From assembly GCA_900470285.1 (NCBI GenBank), contig UCAG01000003.1, positions 1-64,000 on the forward strand: DNA of 64,000 nucleotides. The letters run 5' to 3'. The translations under genes and the position numbers were made by a program. Source of the DNA: Hyphomicrobiales bacterium (GTDB lineage Bacteria; Pseudomonadota; Alphaproteobacteria; Rhizobiales; Rhizobiaceae). Of the stretch, positions 2,114-42,359 are shown one piece after another (the first letter of the stretch is position 1; every line of letters starts with the position of its first letter). A model generated the notes under the pieces. It was not told the DNA's origin, made no database searches, and saw only the letters and a program-made list of their open reading frames with translations.

Positions 2114-4153
2114 ATGGTGTTACGCGGCGCTGCTGTCTTTGTCTCTCTGGTGCTTTTCGGCGCTCAGGCACAGGCCGCATATGAAAAAGAACTTGGCCCT
2201 CTCGCAAATACAGTCAGCAGTCAGCTGCTCAAAGGCTGGAATGTAAAGCAACAGGACGGCTGGGTCTTACTGCAAAATTTCACGGCCAGCGAAAGCGAAC
2301 AATCGCTTTCGGTTCACGCCGGACAACCACCGGAAACCGGCCGTATCATCAGTGCAGCTATTGGGGTTTATTCGGAAAAACCCAATGCCTCCGTTGGTGT
2401 TACACTCGGCAATCGCGCCCGGAAAAGTGTCTGCCTTCTGGAAATTTCAGCCAATAAAACAGTGAATCTGTTTTGCACTGAGGGTGAGAAGCGACATAAT
2501 ATTGCATCCGTTCCGAACCTCGCCAAACTTGACGGTTCTGATATTGTAAAAATTATCGAAGTGCCGGGGGCTGCCCGCTTCCTTGTCAACGATCAGAAAA
2601 TCGGTGAGATCAGCGACATGCCTGCTCTCGGTGCTGAGGTTGGTATCATGGCTTATGATATCGGCACTTTTGCTGTTACCGGTTTCAACATTGATTCCAA
2701 CCTGAATACACAATTACCGCCCCGCCCTGAGGCAGGCGGCACGGCACCGGCTTCCGGTTCCGGCGTGGATGCATCCACGCCGGGCACAGGCCCGCTGCCT
2801 GAATTCGGCAATGATACGGTGCGCCTGATTTCCGTTTATATGGGCTTGGTGCAAAGTATTCTGATGCATGAATTCGGTCATGCGCTGATCGGTGAATTAC
2901 AATTGCCGTCTACCGGACCTGAAGAAGATGCGGTTGATGTTTATGCAGCCTTACAGGTTGTGCAGCCGACAATGTATCCAGATCCGAATAAAGAAGTGAA
3001 TGAGATCGCCAATGGCGCAGCAACCTATGCCGCGCTGCAATGGTATTACAGCGGTAAATTGTCGGAAATGAAGGGCGCGGATACTTCGCCATGGCAGGAT
3101 GAACATACCGCTGACCTTAAGCGCTTCCGCAATATGTTCTGTATCATGTATGGCGGTAATCCGGGGGTATTTGAGCCTGTCGCGCAAAGTGTGGGATTGG
3201 AAGAACGCACCAAAGCCCGATGCGGTGATGAATTCAACAAACAAAACCGCGCATGGCGTCGTATTCTCGCACCACATACCCGTGTCGGCACATGGAATCC
3301 TGATGGTGAAGTACCGGCTGATGCACCGGGGGCACCGATTTCGGCTGTTTTTGAGCCATCCCAGCGACGTGTCGGCAATCTGCTTGCCAACCATCTTTCC
3401 GGCGGATTGAAAGGCTATATTCAACGCCTCGGTGAGACCTATGTCATGCCACGTCCGGTGCAGATCACCTTCAAGGATTGTGGCCAACTGAATGCGTGGT
3501 ACAGCCCGCGTGAAGGCACTGTAACCATGTGCTATGACCTGATTGAGCATCTGGCCGTGATGATATCGGATATCGAGATGAAAACTGTCGGCGGCCACGT
3601 CTCAGCACCGGAAAGCGGTACAACACCTGTTTCCACCACAGGCGGCGGCAGCGGAAGCTCTGGCAGAGACACCACATCTGCTCCAAAAACCACCGCAACG
3701 ACCCAACGTTTTGATGAACTGGAAGATCTGGGCGTTCCGCAGACATACATGCTGTTTCCGGCACCTTATAAAGGACCGACACCGAACTATATCAAAAAAG
3801 CCAAAATTATTAAAACCGTTGATCTTGTTGATCTGCTGAAAACTGAGAAAAACATCCTGCTGATTGATACCGGCGGCTTACGGGAAACATTGCCCGATGC
3901 CTATTCTCTGGCTGATGCCGGTACTGACGGTAGTACCACGGATCGTTTTCAGTCCGCCCTGAATGAATGGCTGATGGATAAAACCAAAGGGCAACGGGAC
4001 GTAAAACTGGTCTTTTTCGGACAGAATATGCGGGAGCGCACTTCATTTAATGCTGCATTACGGGCAGGCACATTGGGTTGGCCGACCTATTGGTATCGCG
4101 GCGGACTGGAAGCGTGGGTCTCCAACGGCCTGCCAACAGTGATGCTGAAATAA
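2114..4153 (+). CDS. Secreted DUF4344-type metallopeptidase fused to a rhodanese-like domain
   Basis: This is a 679-residue exported protein of unknown physiological role. An N-terminal signal peptide ends near AQAQA (residues 1-21). Residues about 25-195 resemble a lectin/LamG-like beta-sandwich. Residues about 215-500 resemble the DUF4344 putative metallopeptidases, with HEFGH at residue 252 (bases 2867-2881), an HExxH zinc motif. A Gly/Ser/Thr-rich linker (about 495-530) leads to a C-terminal rhodanese-like fold ending YRGGLEAWVSNGLP, the typical rhodanese tail. The position where rhodaneses carry their catalytic Cys reads FFGQNMRERTS, with no cysteine, so sulfur transfer is unlikely and the domain is probably a binding module. 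The next gene starts 53 bases downstream, so the two are probably co-transcribed. The peptidase assignment is by motif only; activity is not proven. Confidence 0.75.
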   Translation: MVLRGAAVFVSLVLFGAQAQAAYEKELGPLANTVSSQLLKGWNVKQQDGWVLLQNFTASESEQSLSVHAGQPPETGRIISAAIGVYSEKPNASVGVTLGNRARKSVCLLEISANKTVNLFCTEGEKRHNIASVPNLAKLDGSDIVKIIEVPGAARFLVNDQKIGEISDMPALGAEVGIMAYDIGTFAVTGFNIDSNLNTQLPPRPEAGGTAPASGSGVDASTPGTGPLPEFGNDTVRLISVYMGLVQSILMHEFGHALIGELQLPSTGPEEDAVDVYAALQVVQPTMYPDPNKEVNEIANGAATYAALQWYYSGKLSEMKGADTSPWQDEHTADLKRFRNMFCIMYGGNPGVFEPVAQSVGLEERTKARCGDEFNKQNRAWRRILAPHTRVGTWNPDGEVPADAPGAPISAVFEPSQRRVGNLLANHLSGGLKGYIQRLGETYVMPRPVQITFKDCGQLNAWYSPREGTVTMCYDLIEHLAVMISDIEMKTVGGHVSAPESGTTPVSTTGGGSGSSGRDTTSAPKTTATTQRFDELEDLGVPQTYMLFPAPYKGPTPNYIKKAKIIKTVDLVDLLKTEKNILLIDTGGLRETLPDAYSLADAGTDGSTTDRFQSALNEWLMDKTKGQRDVKLVFFGQNMRERTSFNAALRAGTLGWPTYWYRGGLEAWVSNGLPTVMLK

Positions 4154-31509: not shown

Positions 31510-31965
31510 ATGATTATCGGCGAAGCAGAAAAAGCATCCGGCATTTCAGCCAAGATGATCCGCTACTATGAATCCATCGGCCTGATTGATGCAGCTGACC
31601 GCACAGCCTCCGGCTACCGTGTCTATTCCGACCGTGACGTGCAAAATCTGCGTTTCATACGCCAGTGCCGCGATCTCGGCCTGTCACTGGAGCGAATTAA
31701 ACTCTTGCTCAATCTCTGGCGTAATGATCAGCGTGCATCATCTGAAGTAAAACAGATTGCGCTGGCGCATGTGGCTGAACTGGAAACCAAAATCGCAGAT
31801 ATGCGCTCCATGGCGGATACATTGCAAAAACTGGCAGACCGCTGCCATGGCGATAATGATCCGGATTGCGCAATTATCAATGCTTTGTCGCTGCAAAATC
31901 AGATGACACTCAATAAGAAAACCAACGGCTCAAAAAGCAGCGCTAAAAAACAGCAACCGCACTAA
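31510..31965 (+). CDS. cueR: Cu(I)-responsive MerR-family regulator CueR
   Basis: This 151-residue regulator has the MerR winged helix at the N-terminus (IGEAEKASGISAKMIRYYESIGLI and GYRVYSDRDVQNLRFIRQ, in parts), a dimerisation helix, and the CueR metal loop with two cysteines eight residues apart in DRCHGDNDPDC. It should activate copper-tolerance promoters that have a 19-base spacer. No copper ATPase or chaperone gene is adjacent; the only CueR-like operator found in the window is at 39023-39053, 7 kb away. The C-terminal tail is Lys/Ser-rich. It converges on the HWE kinase gene. Confidence 0.9.
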   Translation: MIIGEAEKASGISAKMIRYYESIGLIDAADRTASGYRVYSDRDVQNLRFIRQCRDLGLSLERIKLLLNLWRNDQRASSEVKQIALAHVAELETKIADMRSMADTLQKLADRCHGDNDPDCAIINALSLQNQMTLNKKTNGSKSSAKKQQPH

Positions 31966-36391: not shown

Positions 36392-36880
36392 TGGGCAGCT
36401 TCCAAAATAACAGGAACTTTCCGGTTCCTACAGCGTTACATCATGTGTCTGCTTGTCTGCCTCTGCCGGCTATTTGCCCGGTCATAACGGATAAAAAGCA
36501 GTCACAAAGACGTCACAAAAACTTCACACAGGCGTTAGCTTTTAGGTAAACAGGCAGTCCGAAGCAAGAGATGACAAAGACCAAAGACAACAAATTCTGT
36601 TACCGGATATGCTTCGGTAGTGTTTTGCAGCCAAAACAGCAAAATCGTAAAAAACTGCACCAAGTAACGGAATATAGCCGGCACGATAATTCTCTATATT
36701 TTTCAAATAGATGCAAATTCATCCGATATTTCCCCTCAGAAATATCCGGAAAAAAATTATCGCAAACTTGTAATGTAGTTTTAAGATTTGTGATGTGTCG
36801 TGTAGGCTTATCACGCGGCCCAAACAACCGCACGGCACTGCCGGGCATTTTGTTTGCCAACTAAAAGACACGGAGCCTTT
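36392..36880. other. Intergenic region between divergent phosphoglycerol-transferase and GGDEF-EAL genes
   Basis: These 489 bases contain no convincing gene. The left part has a Pho-box-like direct repeat at 36501-36533. The middle (about 36570-36800) is AT-rich and should hold the promoter of the GGDEF-EAL gene. Short frames on both strands lack ribosome binding sites or family features. Confidence 0.5.
36501..36533 (+). promoter_or_regulatory. Pho-box-like 11-base direct repeats
   Basis: Three units with an exact 11-base period: GTCACAAAGAC, GTCACAAAAAC, TTCACACAGGC. PhoB boxes consist of such 11-base direct repeats with a GTCA/TTCA-type heptamer. The site lies 110 bases before the phosphoglycerol-transferase-like gene on the other strand. 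Confidence 0.4.
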
Positions 36881-38980
36881 ATGACAACTGCCCCGCTGAA
36901 TAGTCAGATTGACTCCCCGCTGTATTTTCAGCCTGCTTTATCAGAGAATGATTTTCGTCTGCTCTTCACACAACATCCTATTCCGATGTGGCTGTATGAT
37001 CCCATTTCTCTCAAGTTTTTATTGCTGAATGACGCTGCTTTTGAATTTTACGGTTATACGCCGGAGCAGATGAGCCGGATGACCGTGCTGGATATCCGCC
37101 CTGAATCCGAGCACGAACGCATGATTGCTGCCATCCATACGGAAAGTGATTTCGGAAAGCCGCAAGTCTGGAAACACTTGAAAGCCAATGGCGAGACGAT
37201 TGAAGTCATCACCTATGGGCGACGCACCAGTTTCAACGGTCAGCCTGCTATTCTCGCGGTTATTCAGGATCAGACAGAAATCCGCAAAGCACGTAATGAA
37301 ATCAGCCAAACCCGCTCATTGCTCGACAGCCTGATCAAAAACCTGCCGATCGGGGTTTTCATTAAAGATATGCAGGATAGCGGGCGCTATGTCCTGTTTA
37401 ATGAAACGGCCAGTGCGATTACCGGCAAAGAATCTGCACATGTTATCGGCAGAGCCGATCATCAGGTTTTCAGTGAAGAAGATGCACGCAACTTTGTCAC
37501 TCAGGATCAGTATGTCATGGAAAGTGACAGTGTTTTTACTGTTGAAAGTGAAATCCCGTTGCAGAGCCACAGCCGTCATGTACGGGTGATGAAACGTACA
37601 ATTCCGGCGCAAAACGGAGAAAAGCCGCGTTATCTGATCGGACTGATGGAGGATATTACGGAAGAACAGGCTTTGCAGGCACATCTGACCTATACGGCCA
37701 TGCACGACTCGCTGACCAATCTGCCGAACCGTGTCTATTTTTCGCGTCACACAACGGGTTTATTTTCTCAAAAGGAAACAGCCCAGAGCCATGCTCTGCT
37801 GTTTCTCGATGTCGATCACTTCAAACATATCAATGACAGTATCGGCCATGCGGCAGGCGATGCCCTGCTCTGTCAGGTTGCCCGCCGTCTCAGCGCCTTT
37901 CTGAAACCGCAGGATTTTATCGCCCGCCTTGGCGGCGATGAATTTGCGATCATCCATCCTTTTGATCCGGATAATCCCGATCACCGGCAGGAAATAGGCC
38001 ATTTTGCCGAAGAAATTACCAACCTGTTCAGCAAGCCGTTTCATCTGGACGGCAGTCCTGAATATGTCGGCTGCACCATTGGTGTTGTCATTGCGCCGGA
38101 TGATGGCGAGGATATTGATACGCTGTTACGCAATGCTGATCTGGCGCTTTATGCTGCCAAGGCAGACCGGCGCGGCGTCTACCGCTTCTATGAAAGATCC
38201 ATGCGCGAGGCGGTCGAAAAACGCCACCGTACCGCGCTGGAACTGCACACAGCTCTGCAAAATAATGAATTTGTATTGTTTTATCAGCCGATCTTCTCAC
38301 TGACGACAGATCTTATTACCGGTTGTGAAGCCCTGCTGCGCTGGCAACACCCGACACGCGGACTGGTCACCCCGGATGATTTCATACCGATTGCCGAAGA
38401 TACCGGCATCATTTCTGCGATCGGCGCCTGGGTTTTGCGGCAGGCCTGTCAGGATGCCATTTCATGGCCGGAAAAAATTAAGGTTTCGGTCAATCTGTCG
38501 CCGGTACAGTTTAACAGCCGCAACATGCTGGATATGGTGAAATCTGCCCTTGAAGAAAGCGGATTACAGGCCAGCCGTCTGGAGCTGGAAATTACCGAAA
38601 CCGTATTGCTCTCCAATACCGAACATAATACCGAACTGTTATTCGAGTTACGCAATCTTGGCGTGAGCATTGCTATGGATGATTTTGGCACCGGCTATTC
38701 ATCCCTCAATTATTTGCGAACCTTCCCTTTTGATAAGATCAAGATTGATCGCAGTTTTGTGTCGAATATTGATGACGACAAACGTAATCTGGCGATCATT
38801 CAGGCTGTGGTTTCGCTGGGCAGTGCATTCAATATTGTGACGACAGCAGAAGGTGTGGAAACACAGGAACAGCTCACCCGTCTGAAAGATGAACAATTCG
38901 GTGAGGTACAGGGGTTTTTCACCGGAAAACCAATGTCACAGCGTGATGTTTGTGACTTCATCGCGGAATATGACGGATAA
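36881..38980 (+). CDS. PAS-PAS-GGDEF-EAL cyclic-di-GMP enzyme
   Basis: This protein of 699 residues is predicted to make and/or break cyclic di-GMP. Two PAS domains come first (residues about 20-150 and 155-275; LLNDAAFEFYGYTPEQM and LIKNLPIGVFIKDMQD). The GGDEF domain reads FLDVDHFKHINDSIGHAAGD and ARLGGDEFAII, so the active-site motif is intact, while the inhibitory RxxD site reads KPQD with Lys. The EAL domain has CEALLRWQHPTRG, VNLSPVQF, LEITETVLL and AMDDFGTGYSSLNYLRTFP, so it also looks intact. No membrane segment is seen, so it is cytosolic. The ATG at 36881 has GGAG five bases ahead and is preferred to 36854. Which activity dominates cannot be told. Confidence 0.94.
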   Translation: MTTAPLNSQIDSPLYFQPALSENDFRLLFTQHPIPMWLYDPISLKFLLLNDAAFEFYGYTPEQMSRMTVLDIRPESEHERMIAAIHTESDFGKPQVWKHLKANGETIEVITYGRRTSFNGQPAILAVIQDQTEIRKARNEISQTRSLLDSLIKNLPIGVFIKDMQDSGRYVLFNETASAITGKESAHVIGRADHQVFSEEDARNFVTQDQYVMESDSVFTVESEIPLQSHSRHVRVMKRTIPAQNGEKPRYLIGLMEDITEEQALQAHLTYTAMHDSLTNLPNRVYFSRHTTGLFSQKETAQSHALLFLDVDHFKHINDSIGHAAGDALLCQVARRLSAFLKPQDFIARLGGDEFAIIHPFDPDNPDHRQEIGHFAEEITNLFSKPFHLDGSPEYVGCTIGVVIAPDDGEDIDTLLRNADLALYAAKADRRGVYRFYERSMREAVEKRHRTALELHTALQNNEFVLFYQPIFSLTTDLITGCEALLRWQHPTRGLVTPDDFIPIAEDTGIISAIGAWVLRQACQDAISWPEKIKVSVNLSPVQFNSRNMLDMVKSALEESGLQASRLELEITETVLLSNTEHNTELLFELRNLGVSIAMDDFGTGYSSLNYLRTFPFDKIKIDRSFVSNIDDDKRNLAIIQAVVSLGSAFNIVTTAEGVETQEQLTRLKDEQFGEVQGFFTGKPMSQRDVCDFIAEYDG

Positions 38981-39022
38981 AATCATATATTTAAATTAAG
39001 TGCATCTCTTTCGGAAAATCCC

Positions 39023-39053
39023 TTTACCTTCCCATCATGGGAAGATCCATCTT
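39023..39053 (+). promoter_or_regulatory. CueR-type operator/promoter
   Basis: ACCTTCCC-N5-GGGAAGAT (39026-39046) is a near-perfect dyad (seven of eight pairs) matching the CueR operator of copA promoters (ACCTTCC-N7-GGAAGGT). As in copA promoters the dyad begins inside a -35 box (TTTACC, 39023-39028), and a -10-like CATCTT (39048-39053) follows at the 19-base spacing typical of MerR-controlled promoters. Confidence 0.7.
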
Positions 39054-39155
39054 CTTGTTACCATCAACAAAAGCGCCGACATGCGCCTGAAACTGACAAG
39101 AAAGGCAGGATTCTCTCCGATACGATTTTCCGTGTGAACATGCCTGAAGATCATC

Positions 39156-39308
39156 ATGACACAATCCGTTTCCTCAACCGTTCTGCTCTATCCGTTCTAC
39201 GGCATCGCGCTTTCACCGGTTCTGGCAGCGGCAGCCATGGCACTGTCCGGCATCTTCGTGCTGATCAATGCGCTGCGTCTGCACAGTTTCACCAGCACAC
39301 GCCTATAA
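39156..39308 (+). CDS. 50-residue membrane protein equal to the C-terminal end of CopA-type Cu+-ATPase
   Basis: The ATG at 39156 opens a 50-codon frame. After a short head MTQSVSST it reads LYPFYGIALSPVLAAAAMAL and then SGIFVLINALRLHSF, which is the end of P1B-type copper ATPases (family pattern LYP-F-G-LLSP-AAAAMALSS-NALRLR). The MALSS motif of the last membrane helix reads MALSG. All other ATPase parts (metal-binding domain, CPC, DKTGT) are absent. It lies 100 bases after a CueR-like operator and 34 bases before a strong terminator, so it forms a complete small transcription unit. Either it is a functional membrane microprotein or a copA reduced by internal deletion. A weak GAAG lies six bases before the ATG. 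A longer frame in another register (39134-39331) has no family features. Confidence 0.6.
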   Translation: MTQSVSSTVLLYPFYGIALSPVLAAAAMALSGIFVLINALRLHSFTSTRL

Positions 39309-39342
39309 AAGCTCCATCCTCTCAAGGTTGATGCTTTTAAAC

Positions 39343-39374
39343 AAAACGCCGTCCGTAACAGGGCGGCGTTTTCA
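39343..39374 (+). terminator. Terminator of the small copper-type transcription unit
   Basis: AAAACGCCGTCC (39343-39354) pairs with GGGCGGCGTTTT (39361-39372) across a six-base loop, with one G-T pair, ending in a T run. Confidence 0.85.
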
Positions 39375-39552
39375 TTGATCAGAGAATTGATTTACTTATT
39401 GTTTTACAGAATTTCCCGCGCTTTTTCCTGTCAGAATTAACTGTATCTGTGTCGATTCATTTGTTCTATTTTCAAATAAATGTTTCGAAGCACTTCCCGC
39501 TGTGCTTTACTGATCTATATTCTTCCCCATTCAATAAATAAGGGGTAGCATT

Positions 39553-41910
39553 GTGTTAGTTTCATTAACAGCCATCCTCTTTGCGTTCATAGGCATCGCA
39601 CTTGGCTATGGTGGCATAAAACTCGCCCTGCTGGGCGGCAGCCTTTATTACATTATTACCGCGGCCGGTTTCTTACTGACCGCCATTCTGCTTTTTACCC
39701 GCCGCGCTGCGGCGCTGTGGGTCTATGCCCTGATCATTCTCGGTACACTCGGCTGGGCGATCTATGAGGTCGGCTTTGACTGGTGGCCGCTCGGTTCGCG
39801 CGGCGGCATTATTGTGTTGCTCGGTCTATGGCTGTTGCTGCCGCCTATCCGCAAAGCACTGAGCCCTGCCAGCAGAGAAATTGCACCTACTGTTGAGCAG
39901 GCACGCGCTGGCAATGCCAGCCCTTTGCCATTGCTGGCGGCAGTTGCTGCTGCACTGATTGTTGCCGGTGTTGCAATCTCAAAAGACCCGCATAATCTTG
40001 ATGGTTCCCTGCCGACAGAAGAAGTGGCGGCTGCGCCCGATACCGGCAATGTTGTGCCGGATGGTGAATGGCATCAATATGGCCGCACGCAATATGGTCA
40101 GCGCTATTCTCCGCTCACGCAAATCACACCGGAGAACGTGGCCAAGCTTGAACTGGCCTGGCAATATCGCACCGGCGATGTGCGCCAGCCGCAGGATGTG
40201 ACAGAAACAACCTATCAGGTCACACCGCTCAAGATTGAAGACACGCTCTATCTCTGTACCCCGCATAATATTGCCATTGCGCTGGATGCGGATACGGGCA
40301 AGGAAAAATGGCGTTATAATCCGGAGGTCAGCGCCAATACACAGCGCCAGCACCAGACCTGCCGTGGTGTGACCTATTGGAAGGACCAGACAGTTGCCGC
40401 AGAGCAGGCCTGCTATGAGCGGGTTTATCTGCCGACATCGGATGCGCATCTGATCGCACTGGATGCCAAAACCGGCCAGATCTGCGAGAACTTTGCCGAC
40501 AAGGGCGTGCTCGATCTGACCCGTGGCATGAAATATAATCCGTCCGGCTATTATTATTCCACCTCTCCGCCAACCGCGATTGACGGCAAGATTATTGTCG
40601 GCGGCGCGGTGAATGATAATTTCTCGACTGAGGAACAGTCGGGCGTTATCCGCGCGTTTGACATTCTGACCGGTCAGTTGTTGTGGAACTGGGATTCCGG
40701 CAATCCCGATGTCACCACACCGATTGCCGAGGGCGAACATTACACAACCAACTCACCAAACAGCTGGTCGGTTTTCAGCGCCGATGAAAAGCTCGGCCTG
40801 ATTTATATACCGCTCGGCAATCAGGTGCCGGATCAGCTCGGCATGGGGCGCAGCGAAGCGGTAGAGAAATATTCCTCATCCATCACCGCTCTTGATGTGA
40901 ATACCGGTCAGGTACGCTGGGTGCGCCAGACTGTGCATCATGATCTGTGGGATATGGATGTGCCTGCACAGCCGGTACTGCTCGATATCACCAAGGACGG
41001 ACAAGCCGTGCCTGCACTGGTTGGGCCAACCAAACAGGGTGATATTTACGTGCTCGACCGGCGCACCGGTGAGCCAATTATTCCGGTGACAGAAGTTGCA
41101 GCGCCGAAAGGTGCAATACCGGAGGATTTCTCGGCTCCGACACAGCCGCTTTCCGGCCTGACATTTAACCCGCCACCATTGACGGAAGCTAATATGTGGG
41201 GAGCGACGATGTTCGATCAGCTCGCCTGCCGCATCCAGTTCCGCTCGCTGCGCTACGAAGGCCGCTACACCCCGCCATCCTTACAAGGCACAATTGTCTA
41301 TCCCGGCAATTTCGGGGTGTTCAACTGGGGTAGTGTGGCCGTTGATCCGAAACGTCAGGTAATGTTCGGTATGCCGACCTATCTGGCCTTCACCTCGCGC
41401 CTTGTGCCTGCGGATCAGATTCCGCCGAAAGGTGAAGATGAAAAAGCCAGCGAACAAGGGCTGAACCGCAATGACGGCGCACCTTACGGCGTGTTTATGG
41501 GACCATTCCTGTCGCCGCTCGGCATTCCGTGCCAGTCGCCGCCATGGGGCTATGTAGCGGGTGTTGATCTGCGCACCGGTAAAATCGCCTATAAGCATAA
41601 AAACGGTACGGTTGAAGATATGGCACCGGTGCCAATTCCGCTGAAACTCGGCGTGCCGGGTATTGGTGGCCCGCTGATCACCGCAGGCGGCGTTGCCTTC
41701 CTCGGTGCGGCGGTTGATGATTATCTGCGCGCTTATGATCTCACCACCGGCAAGCAGCTCTGGCAAACCCGCCTGCCCGCAGGCGGTCAGTCCACACCGA
41801 TGAGCTATACCGGCAAAGACGGCAAACAATATGTGCTGATCGTTGCCGGTGGTCACGGTTCAGTCGGCACTAAAGCCGGTGATTATGTGATGTCCTATAA
41901 ATTGCCATAA
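39553..41910 (+). CDS. gcd: Membrane-bound PQQ-dependent glucose dehydrogenase
   Basis: This quinoprotein oxidises glucose (or related aldoses) to gluconolactone in the periplasm and passes electrons to ubiquinone. Its 785 residues have the standard layout: five N-terminal membrane helices (residues 1-140; LALLGGSLYYIITAAGFLL and VYALIILGTLGWAI) and an eight-bladed propeller. Motifs include GEWHQYGRTQYGQRYSPLTQ, QTCRGVTYWKD, TVHHDLWDMDVPAQPVL, and the C-terminal GQSTPMSYTGKDGKQYVLIVAGGHG (in part) of the family. The start is the GTG at 39553, with AGGGG eight bases ahead. No pqq biosynthesis genes are in the window. It ends at a strong terminator. Confidence 0.95.
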   Translation: MLVSLTAILFAFIGIALGYGGIKLALLGGSLYYIITAAGFLLTAILLFTRRAAALWVYALIILGTLGWAIYEVGFDWWPLGSRGGIIVLLGLWLLLPPIRKALSPASREIAPTVEQARAGNASPLPLLAAVAAALIVAGVAISKDPHNLDGSLPTEEVAAAPDTGNVVPDGEWHQYGRTQYGQRYSPLTQITPENVAKLELAWQYRTGDVRQPQDVTETTYQVTPLKIEDTLYLCTPHNIAIALDADTGKEKWRYNPEVSANTQRQHQTCRGVTYWKDQTVAAEQACYERVYLPTSDAHLIALDAKTGQICENFADKGVLDLTRGMKYNPSGYYYSTSPPTAIDGKIIVGGAVNDNFSTEEQSGVIRAFDILTGQLLWNWDSGNPDVTTPIAEGEHYTTNSPNSWSVFSADEKLGLIYIPLGNQVPDQLGMGRSEAVEKYSSSITALDVNTGQVRWVRQTVHHDLWDMDVPAQPVLLDITKDGQAVPALVGPTKQGDIYVLDRRTGEPIIPVTEVAAPKGAIPEDFSAPTQPLSGLTFNPPPLTEANMWGATMFDQLACRIQFRSLRYEGRYTPPSLQGTIVYPGNFGVFNWGSVAVDPKRQVMFGMPTYLAFTSRLVPADQIPPKGEDEKASEQGLNRNDGAPYGVFMGPFLSPLGIPCQSPPWGYVAGVDLRTGKIAYKHKNGTVEDMAPVPIPLKLGVPGIGGPLITAGGVAFLGAAVDDYLRAYDLTTGKQLWQTRLPAGGQSTPMSYTGKDGKQYVLIVAGGHGSVGTKAGDYVMSYKLP

Positions 41911-41925
41911 GCAAAACCGAAAAAG

Positions 41926-41954
41926 AAAAAGGGCGGAAATTTCCGCCCTTTTTT
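41926..41954. terminator. Bidirectional terminator after gcd
   Basis: A perfect palindrome AAAAAGGGCGGAA-AT-TTCCGCCCTTTTT lies between convergent gcd and the DUF779 gene and suits both strands. Confidence 0.92.
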
Positions 41955-41993
41955 ACGTCACACGGTTTTACAAAGTGTCTTGGGAGAGACAAT

Positions 41994-42359
41994 TTAAATT
42001 TTACAAATTGTTGAGCGGGTCAAAAAACGCACTTCACGGCCATTATCCAGCGAAAACATACCGCCCCGCCCCGGCACAACATCAATGATCAGATCGGTAT
42101 GTTTCCACGCTTCATATTGCGAACGGCTGATATAAAACGGCGCACCGCCAATCTCACCCAGTTGCACATCCTGATCACCGATCAGAAAGTCCCCCTGCGC
42201 ATAACACATCGGCGATGAGCCATCACAGCAACCGCCGGACTGATGAAACATCACCGGCCCGTATTCGCTCTGTAATTCGGCAATCAGTTTGAGAGCGTCA
42301 GGTGTCGCAGTCACCTTGTTCAGCGATGCAGTATCCGCATTATGATCTGCTTCAGTCAT
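41994..42359 (-). CDS. DUF779 family protein
   Basis: This is a 121-residue protein of unknown function. The family hallmark is the cysteine-rich motif FHQSGGCCDGSSPMCY near residue 40, followed by a conserved beta-rich part (GAPFYISRSQYEAWKHTDL) and GRGGMFSLDNG. DUF779 genes are usually found beside aldehyde dehydrogenase genes, and the same holds here: adhP lies 20 bases upstream and an aldehyde dehydrogenase before that, all on the minus strand. The CC and C residues could bind a metal or a thiol adduct. A role in alcohol/aldehyde metabolism is inferred from this context. Confidence 0.85.
   Translation of the reverse strand: MTEADHNADTASLNKVTATPDALKLIAELQSEYGPVMFHQSGGCCDGSSPMCYAQGDFLIGDQDVQLGEIGGAPFYISRSQYEAWKHTDLIIDVVPGRGGMFSLDNGREVRFLTRSTICKI

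Follow-up and report, generated by a model that had tools for sequence, protein, structure and literature searches.

The window, by which we mean the whole 64,000-nucleotide stretch of DNA analysed here, carries at 39023-39374 a compact group of features lying between a gene encoding a PAS-GGDEF-EAL protein (36854-38980) and the membrane PQQ glucose dehydrogenase gene gcd (39553-41910; TIGR03074, 1152.7 bits, cut-off 832.65), and all of the window features described here are on the forward strand. Leftmost is a promoter of the CueR type, TTTACC-N19-CATCTT (39023-39053), over which lies an operator dyad, ACCTTCCC-N5-GGGAAGAT, in which N5 is ATCAT (39026-39046). A 50-codon open reading frame (ORF) follows, with its ATG at 39156 and a GAAG upstream of it, and its termination codon at 39306-39308. 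A hairpin terminator, with a folding energy of -21.3 kcal/mol (z -5.57) that none of 200 shuffles equalled, is situated at about 39343-39372, in agreement with the strong terminator originally predicted after the ORF; the corresponding hairpin of Pseudochrobactrum saccharolyticum folds at -23.8 kcal/mol. An Rfam search gave one match, inside gcd, at 17.5 bits compared with a gathering score of 75. An intact cueR gene is located farther upstream (31510-31965).

The ORF product is derived from two genes. It begins MTQSVSSTVLL, the same sequence as residues 1-11 of the P. saccharolyticum copZ product, a 75-aa HMA protein (L035), and then continues as YPFYG... from copA, such that the first 9-11 codons are those of copZ and the last 39-41 codons are the end of copA. 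The copZ stub, consisting of the start codon and these first codons, occupies 39156-39189, and the copA 3' end, fused to it in frame, occupies 39183-39308. A reading in which the ORF starts as copA was ruled out, because the first 9-11 codons belong to copZ. The hydrophobic part had been predicted to correspond to the C-terminal segment of CopA, and this is borne out by matches to positions 798-835 of 838 in NCBIfam NF007952 (E 4.9e-8, 31.6 bits, where the whole-protein cut-off is 1316), to positions 510-541 of 542 in TIGR01511 (below cut-off), and to another CopA of the same genome, encoded on contig C8, with 74% identity over residues 9-46 (E 2.0e-11). Judged on these alignments the likeness to CopA is not a matter of chance; a Pfam search of the 50-aa product at E 0.001 gave no match.

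A functional CopA P1B ATPase has a catalytic core with a DKTGT phosphorylation site and a CPC membrane motif, in a layout of metal-binding, actuator, phosphorylation and nucleotide-binding parts together with several membrane segments. The likeness of the ORF to the Cu+-translocating P1B-type ATPase CopA consists of about 38 residues that match the C-terminal end of the TIGR01511 and NF007952 profiles, this end being all that is covered, and the ORF differs in being without the metal-binding, actuator, phosphorylation and nucleotide-binding parts and most of the membrane segments. The HMA domain with a CxxC metal site that characterizes CopZ is likewise absent, as the stub ends before the GMGCG(S/A)C segment of six related genomes.

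The corresponding operon in other Pseudochrobactrum genomes

Seven Pseudochrobactrum genomes were searched, including that of the window, and the six relatives are P. asaccharolyticum DSM 25619 (G001), P. kiredjianiae CCUG 49584 (G002), P. saccharolyticum CCUG 33852 (G003), G004, Pseudochrobactrum sp. sp1633 (G005), and a Brucellaceae MAG that is 61% complete (G006). In each of the six the space between the PAS-GGDEF-EAL gene and gcd is occupied by a full-length copA preceded by a CueR-type promoter and a CopZ-like gene of 75 aa, and the best match of the ORF (86-88% identity) falls inside an open frame of 842-853 aa. The DNA at 38900-39600 matches the same place in all six, and local alignment of 36700-42000 recovers both flanks, in unchanged order and separated by extra DNA, again in every relative. 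The 75-aa HMA protein of P. saccharolyticum, the closest relative, passes TIGR00003 (65.4 bits, cut-off 62), and its copA product passes TIGR01511 (603.2 versus 397 bits) and lies below the equivalog NF007952 (756.9 versus 1316). The original prediction had held that a full copA at the syntenic place in relatives would support a deletion, and this is what the six congeners contain.

We also note that a record titled Bacillus subtilis strain SK6B4 (JAHREI010000001.1; L050) encodes a CopA that is 94% identical to that of P. saccharolyticum, as seen among the best 80 of 294 matches, and the title of this record looks wrong.

Compared with the Pseudochrobactrum CueR-type copZ-copA operon, as represented by P. 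saccharolyticum CCUG 33852 (NZ_VZPG01000001.1), the window has the same genomic place and promoter architecture and keeps the first copZ codons, the last copA codons and the terminator hairpin, but it lacks about 2.6 kb that includes nearly all of copZ, the intergenic gap and copA except its end, and its promoter hexamers are altered. In the alignment with P. saccharolyticum, query positions 1-290 correspond to 948330-948630 and positions 284-700 to 951227-951643, with about 2.6 kb between, and the same seven bases, CTGCTCT, fit both ends; in window coordinates the left match ends at 39189 and the right match begins at 39183, placing the junction at 39183-39189. The corresponding points lie 2603 bases apart in P. 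saccharolyticum and 2603, 2604 or 2703 bases apart in the other five relatives. CTGCTCT is present at both edges of the gap in four of the six (L035, L038, L039 and L040), with L036 and L037 differing at the left edge, and the rough chance of a 7-bp edge identity for random breakpoints is 5e-4. The left alignment reaches the junction in four relatives (to 39189, and to 39205 in L037) and ends at 39109 in L036 and L040, for which the copZ start was aligned separately.

An intact syntenic unit in six of six congeners, the preservation of both ends and a short direct repeat at the junction are the marks of a deletion remnant, and the locus, as represented by one assembly of one strain, is almost certainly a natural deletion in a standard CueR-type copZ-copA operon. 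The proposal that a copA gene had lost its middle but kept its promoter, start and end is therefore upheld for the deletion, which is apparent against all six congeners, and for the end, but not for the start, which is that of copZ, a separate upstream gene.

We infer a short-repeat mechanism in which the CTGCTCT copies in copZ codons 10-12 and in the last copA membrane segment would have recombined, or slipped during replication, such that everything between them was removed. What would have survived is the promoter and the terminator and, between them, the copZ start with its 9-11 codons joined to the final 39-41 codons of copA, in frame by chance; copZ and copA can be in different frames, and roughly one such fusion in three is expected to be in frame. 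Neither a metal site nor an ATPase core remains, and the unit is probably drifting, with changes in the hexamers and in residues of the tail. A partial check of titles and abstract openings in the Pseudochrobactrum copper and copA/CueR literature revealed no report of this deletion.

Promoter, regulator and constraint on the remnant

CueR usually controls CopA and CopZ, and copZ usually shares an operon with its ATPase, as outlined in PMC9470648, and a 19-bp spacer is known for the Escherichia coli copA promoter, according to PMC7911910. The window promoter fits the CueR type in its architecture, with a dyad in the 19-bp spacer between the -35 and -10 hexamers. A CueR-like dyad over a -35/-10 pair with 19-base spacing had been predicted, and it is unique in the window: a scan of the 64 kb for ACCTTCCC-N5-GGGAAG with up to two mismatches gave two matches, which are one site on both strands (0 and 1 mismatch), whereas 0.13 are expected from shuffled controls and 1 of 100 shuffles reached two matches. 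The assignment of the gene at 31510 as cueR was likewise correct, its product scoring 163.1 bits with TIGR02044 (cut-off 147.4). It is 98% identical to the CueR of P. saccharolyticum, so the regulator has not decayed, and it lies about 7.5 kb upstream of the promoter, compared with 7.4 kb in P. saccharolyticum.

The congener promoter is TTGACC-N19-TATCTT in six of six genomes, and the window copy has one change in each hexamer, at position 3 of the -35 and position 1 of the -10. Over the 31-bp promoter core the window has four substitutions of its own at columns that are uniform in the six relatives, each of which has no private change, and a search of the window with the P. saccharolyticum 31-mer at up to three mismatches found no match, the window copy differing at four positions. 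The dyad of the window exceeds that of the relatives in symmetry by one base, and the -10 of the C8 copA promoter, CATGCT, also has C in the first position, such that this base need not abolish activity. The promoter core is identical to P. saccharolyticum at 27 of 31 positions (87%), compared with 33 of 42 and 81 of 102 (both 79%) in the non-coding DNA on either side, and the copZ stub at 32 of 34; the excess of promoter changes relative to P. saccharolyticum alone has a one-sided Fisher p of 0.056. Because the core and the stub are less diverged than their non-coding neighbours, it would seem that constraint lasted for much of the lineage, and it may not be wholly gone from the unit.

In the 41-codon tail there are five window-only nonsynonymous changes in four residues (L to A, S to G, T to I, and R to H) and five synonymous ones, versus one private nonsynonymous and eight synonymous changes in the six other tails together (one-sided Fisher p 0.09), and the excess of window-only substitutions is suggestive, not significant. 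Relative to P. saccharolyticum, dN is 0.059 for the tail, 0.015 for the EAL gene and 0.021 for gcd, and dS is 0.41 for the tail and 0.42 for the EAL gene. Pairwise dN/dS values for the tail run from 0.12 to 0.24 across the six relatives (0.15 with P. saccharolyticum), a range that includes all of the time before the deletion and is compatible with constraint. The block at 39183-39332 is 86% identical to P. saccharolyticum and shows 84-87% identity with every one of the five relatives in the comparison.

The non-coding stretch that follows this block is 97-99% identical to P. saccharolyticum, as is the window over 39333-39626, and from about 39627 through gcd it is mostly closer to P. asaccharolyticum (91-98%) and G004 (89-99%). 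The dS of gcd is 0.52 to P. saccharolyticum, and to P. asaccharolyticum and G004 the values are about 1.5 for the EAL gene and 0.20-0.22 for gcd. These comparisons suggest recombination of gcd.

Conservation as a free-standing small gene had been put forward as a sign of function and is not seen. The six congeners contain no free-standing syntenic orthologue of the ORF, and among 73 matches (E up to 1e-5) in 61 genomes of the family, sampled from a larger group, 68 are in frames of at least 735 aa, two are in frames of 398 and 528 aa, and three are in frames shorter than 200 aa, these being the window, the G082 tail and one at the edge of a contig (G053). Within the genus, 2 of 20 matches are in short frames, that of the window and a 49% identical tail in Pseudochrobactrum sp. 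sp1633 (contig 28, about 1500-1617; L022), in which a 43-aa frame with the CopA tail follows the 3' end of another metal ATPase gene (the gene being called by eye). G082 belongs to another genus of the family, and its contig 23 (about 2474-2919, minus strand; L129) resembles the window in that a CopA tail comes straight after an HMA fragment, without the part in between, but differs in that the two parts are in different frames and at another genomic place; this looks like an independent loss of the copA middle. From their contexts the short CopA-tail frames look like debris and not a conserved gene, and a conserved microprotein was rejected on this absence of a conserved free-standing homologue from the six congeners and the 61 family genomes sampled. 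A scan of genome contigs with the 50-aa ORF as query gave no match, and phage records gave four weak ones, two labelled as cation ATPases and two without annotation. There were 2867 matching plasmid records, and the best 20 of these 2867 comprise 17 labelled as metal or silver ATPases and three without a label; window positions 36800-42000 match a single plasmid record, in gcd only.

It is nonetheless conceivable that a copper-induced fusion microprotein, composed of a copZ leader and the last CopA helix, is made from the CueR promoter and acts on the CopA pumps that remain, by packing against them or regulating them. The open frame, the ATG with its upstream GAAG, the dyad, the 19-bp spacer and the hairpin are all present, cueR is intact, the genome has other CopA-like ATPases, and the promoter core has diverged less than its surroundings. 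However, the arrangement occurs in one of the seven genus genomes and has no conserved form in the family sample, both promoter hexamers are altered, and four residues differ at positions that do not vary among the six relatives. That a frame of such length is open is, moreover, expected after modest drift, because a stop codon arises from 9 of 450 single substitutions, and 10 random substitutions would leave about 82% of frames free of one, with indels ignored. The earlier argument that an intact terminator, operator and open frame favour use of the product is correspondingly weak: the deletion does not reach the terminator, which the relatives have as well, the frame is not easily closed, and both hexamers, uniform in six of six relatives, have changed in the window. 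Expression of a microprotein is without positive support and we regard it as improbable; slightly less probable again is that a deletion-born, copper-inducible fusion microprotein is translated and modulates the remaining metal ATPases, as a young gene formed by operon collapse. The remnant has most likely lost its function, and a natural deletion together with a non-functional, decaying remnant is, taken jointly, very likely.

The assembly is a draft of 23 contigs from a single strain, and the gap might reflect an assembly error in a strain that has an intact operon, but this is very unlikely. There is no detached copy in the genome: the copZ product has its best other match, at 44%, within the C8 ATPase frame, and other matches to the CopA tail are at most 74%. 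Normal assembly does not collapse repeats as short as 7 bp, and for this reason and the lack of a detached copZ or copA-tail copy an assembly collapse was rejected. That a stand-alone CopA-tail gene is ancestral, with copZ-copA completed or inserted later in the relatives, is a formally possible order of events with nothing further to recommend it, and is exceedingly improbable given that the complete unit is present in six of six relatives including the closest, that the junction lies inside two different genes such that an insertion would need an exact match, and that tail matches in the family are mostly in full-length ATPases.

Other copper genes and implications of the loss

Contig C8 contains an 860-aa CopA frame next to a cueR-like gene (55% identity to the window CueR), together with a divergently oriented small HMA gene (27% to copZ), and a CueR-type promoter with TTGACC and TTGACCTTCC-N7-GGAAG is located directly before the likely copA start. 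This cluster is at about 75.2-78.5 kb (L041), and over 71% of its length L041 shares 93.3% identity with three records of a 432-kb P. algeriensis plasmid; the C8 cluster is a second copper module, possibly plasmid-linked. A related ATPase with a CueR-like site directly upstream is present on contig C12. A strict CueR promoter pattern found no sites in the window's own genome, and a laxer pattern with one mismatch found four there and four in P. saccharolyticum, compared with one each in a backward-read control, although one of the four in the window's genome (C23) does not look like a dyad.

A single short-repeat deletion can thus leave an operator, a start, an open frame and a terminator that together resemble a purposeful microprotein gene, and it is comparison with relatives that resolves such a look-alike. 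For the organism, one copper chaperone and pump pair has been lost and the CueR of 31510 has been kept. The loss is of one of several copper routes, and the remaining copA units presumably carry copper export and cover for it.
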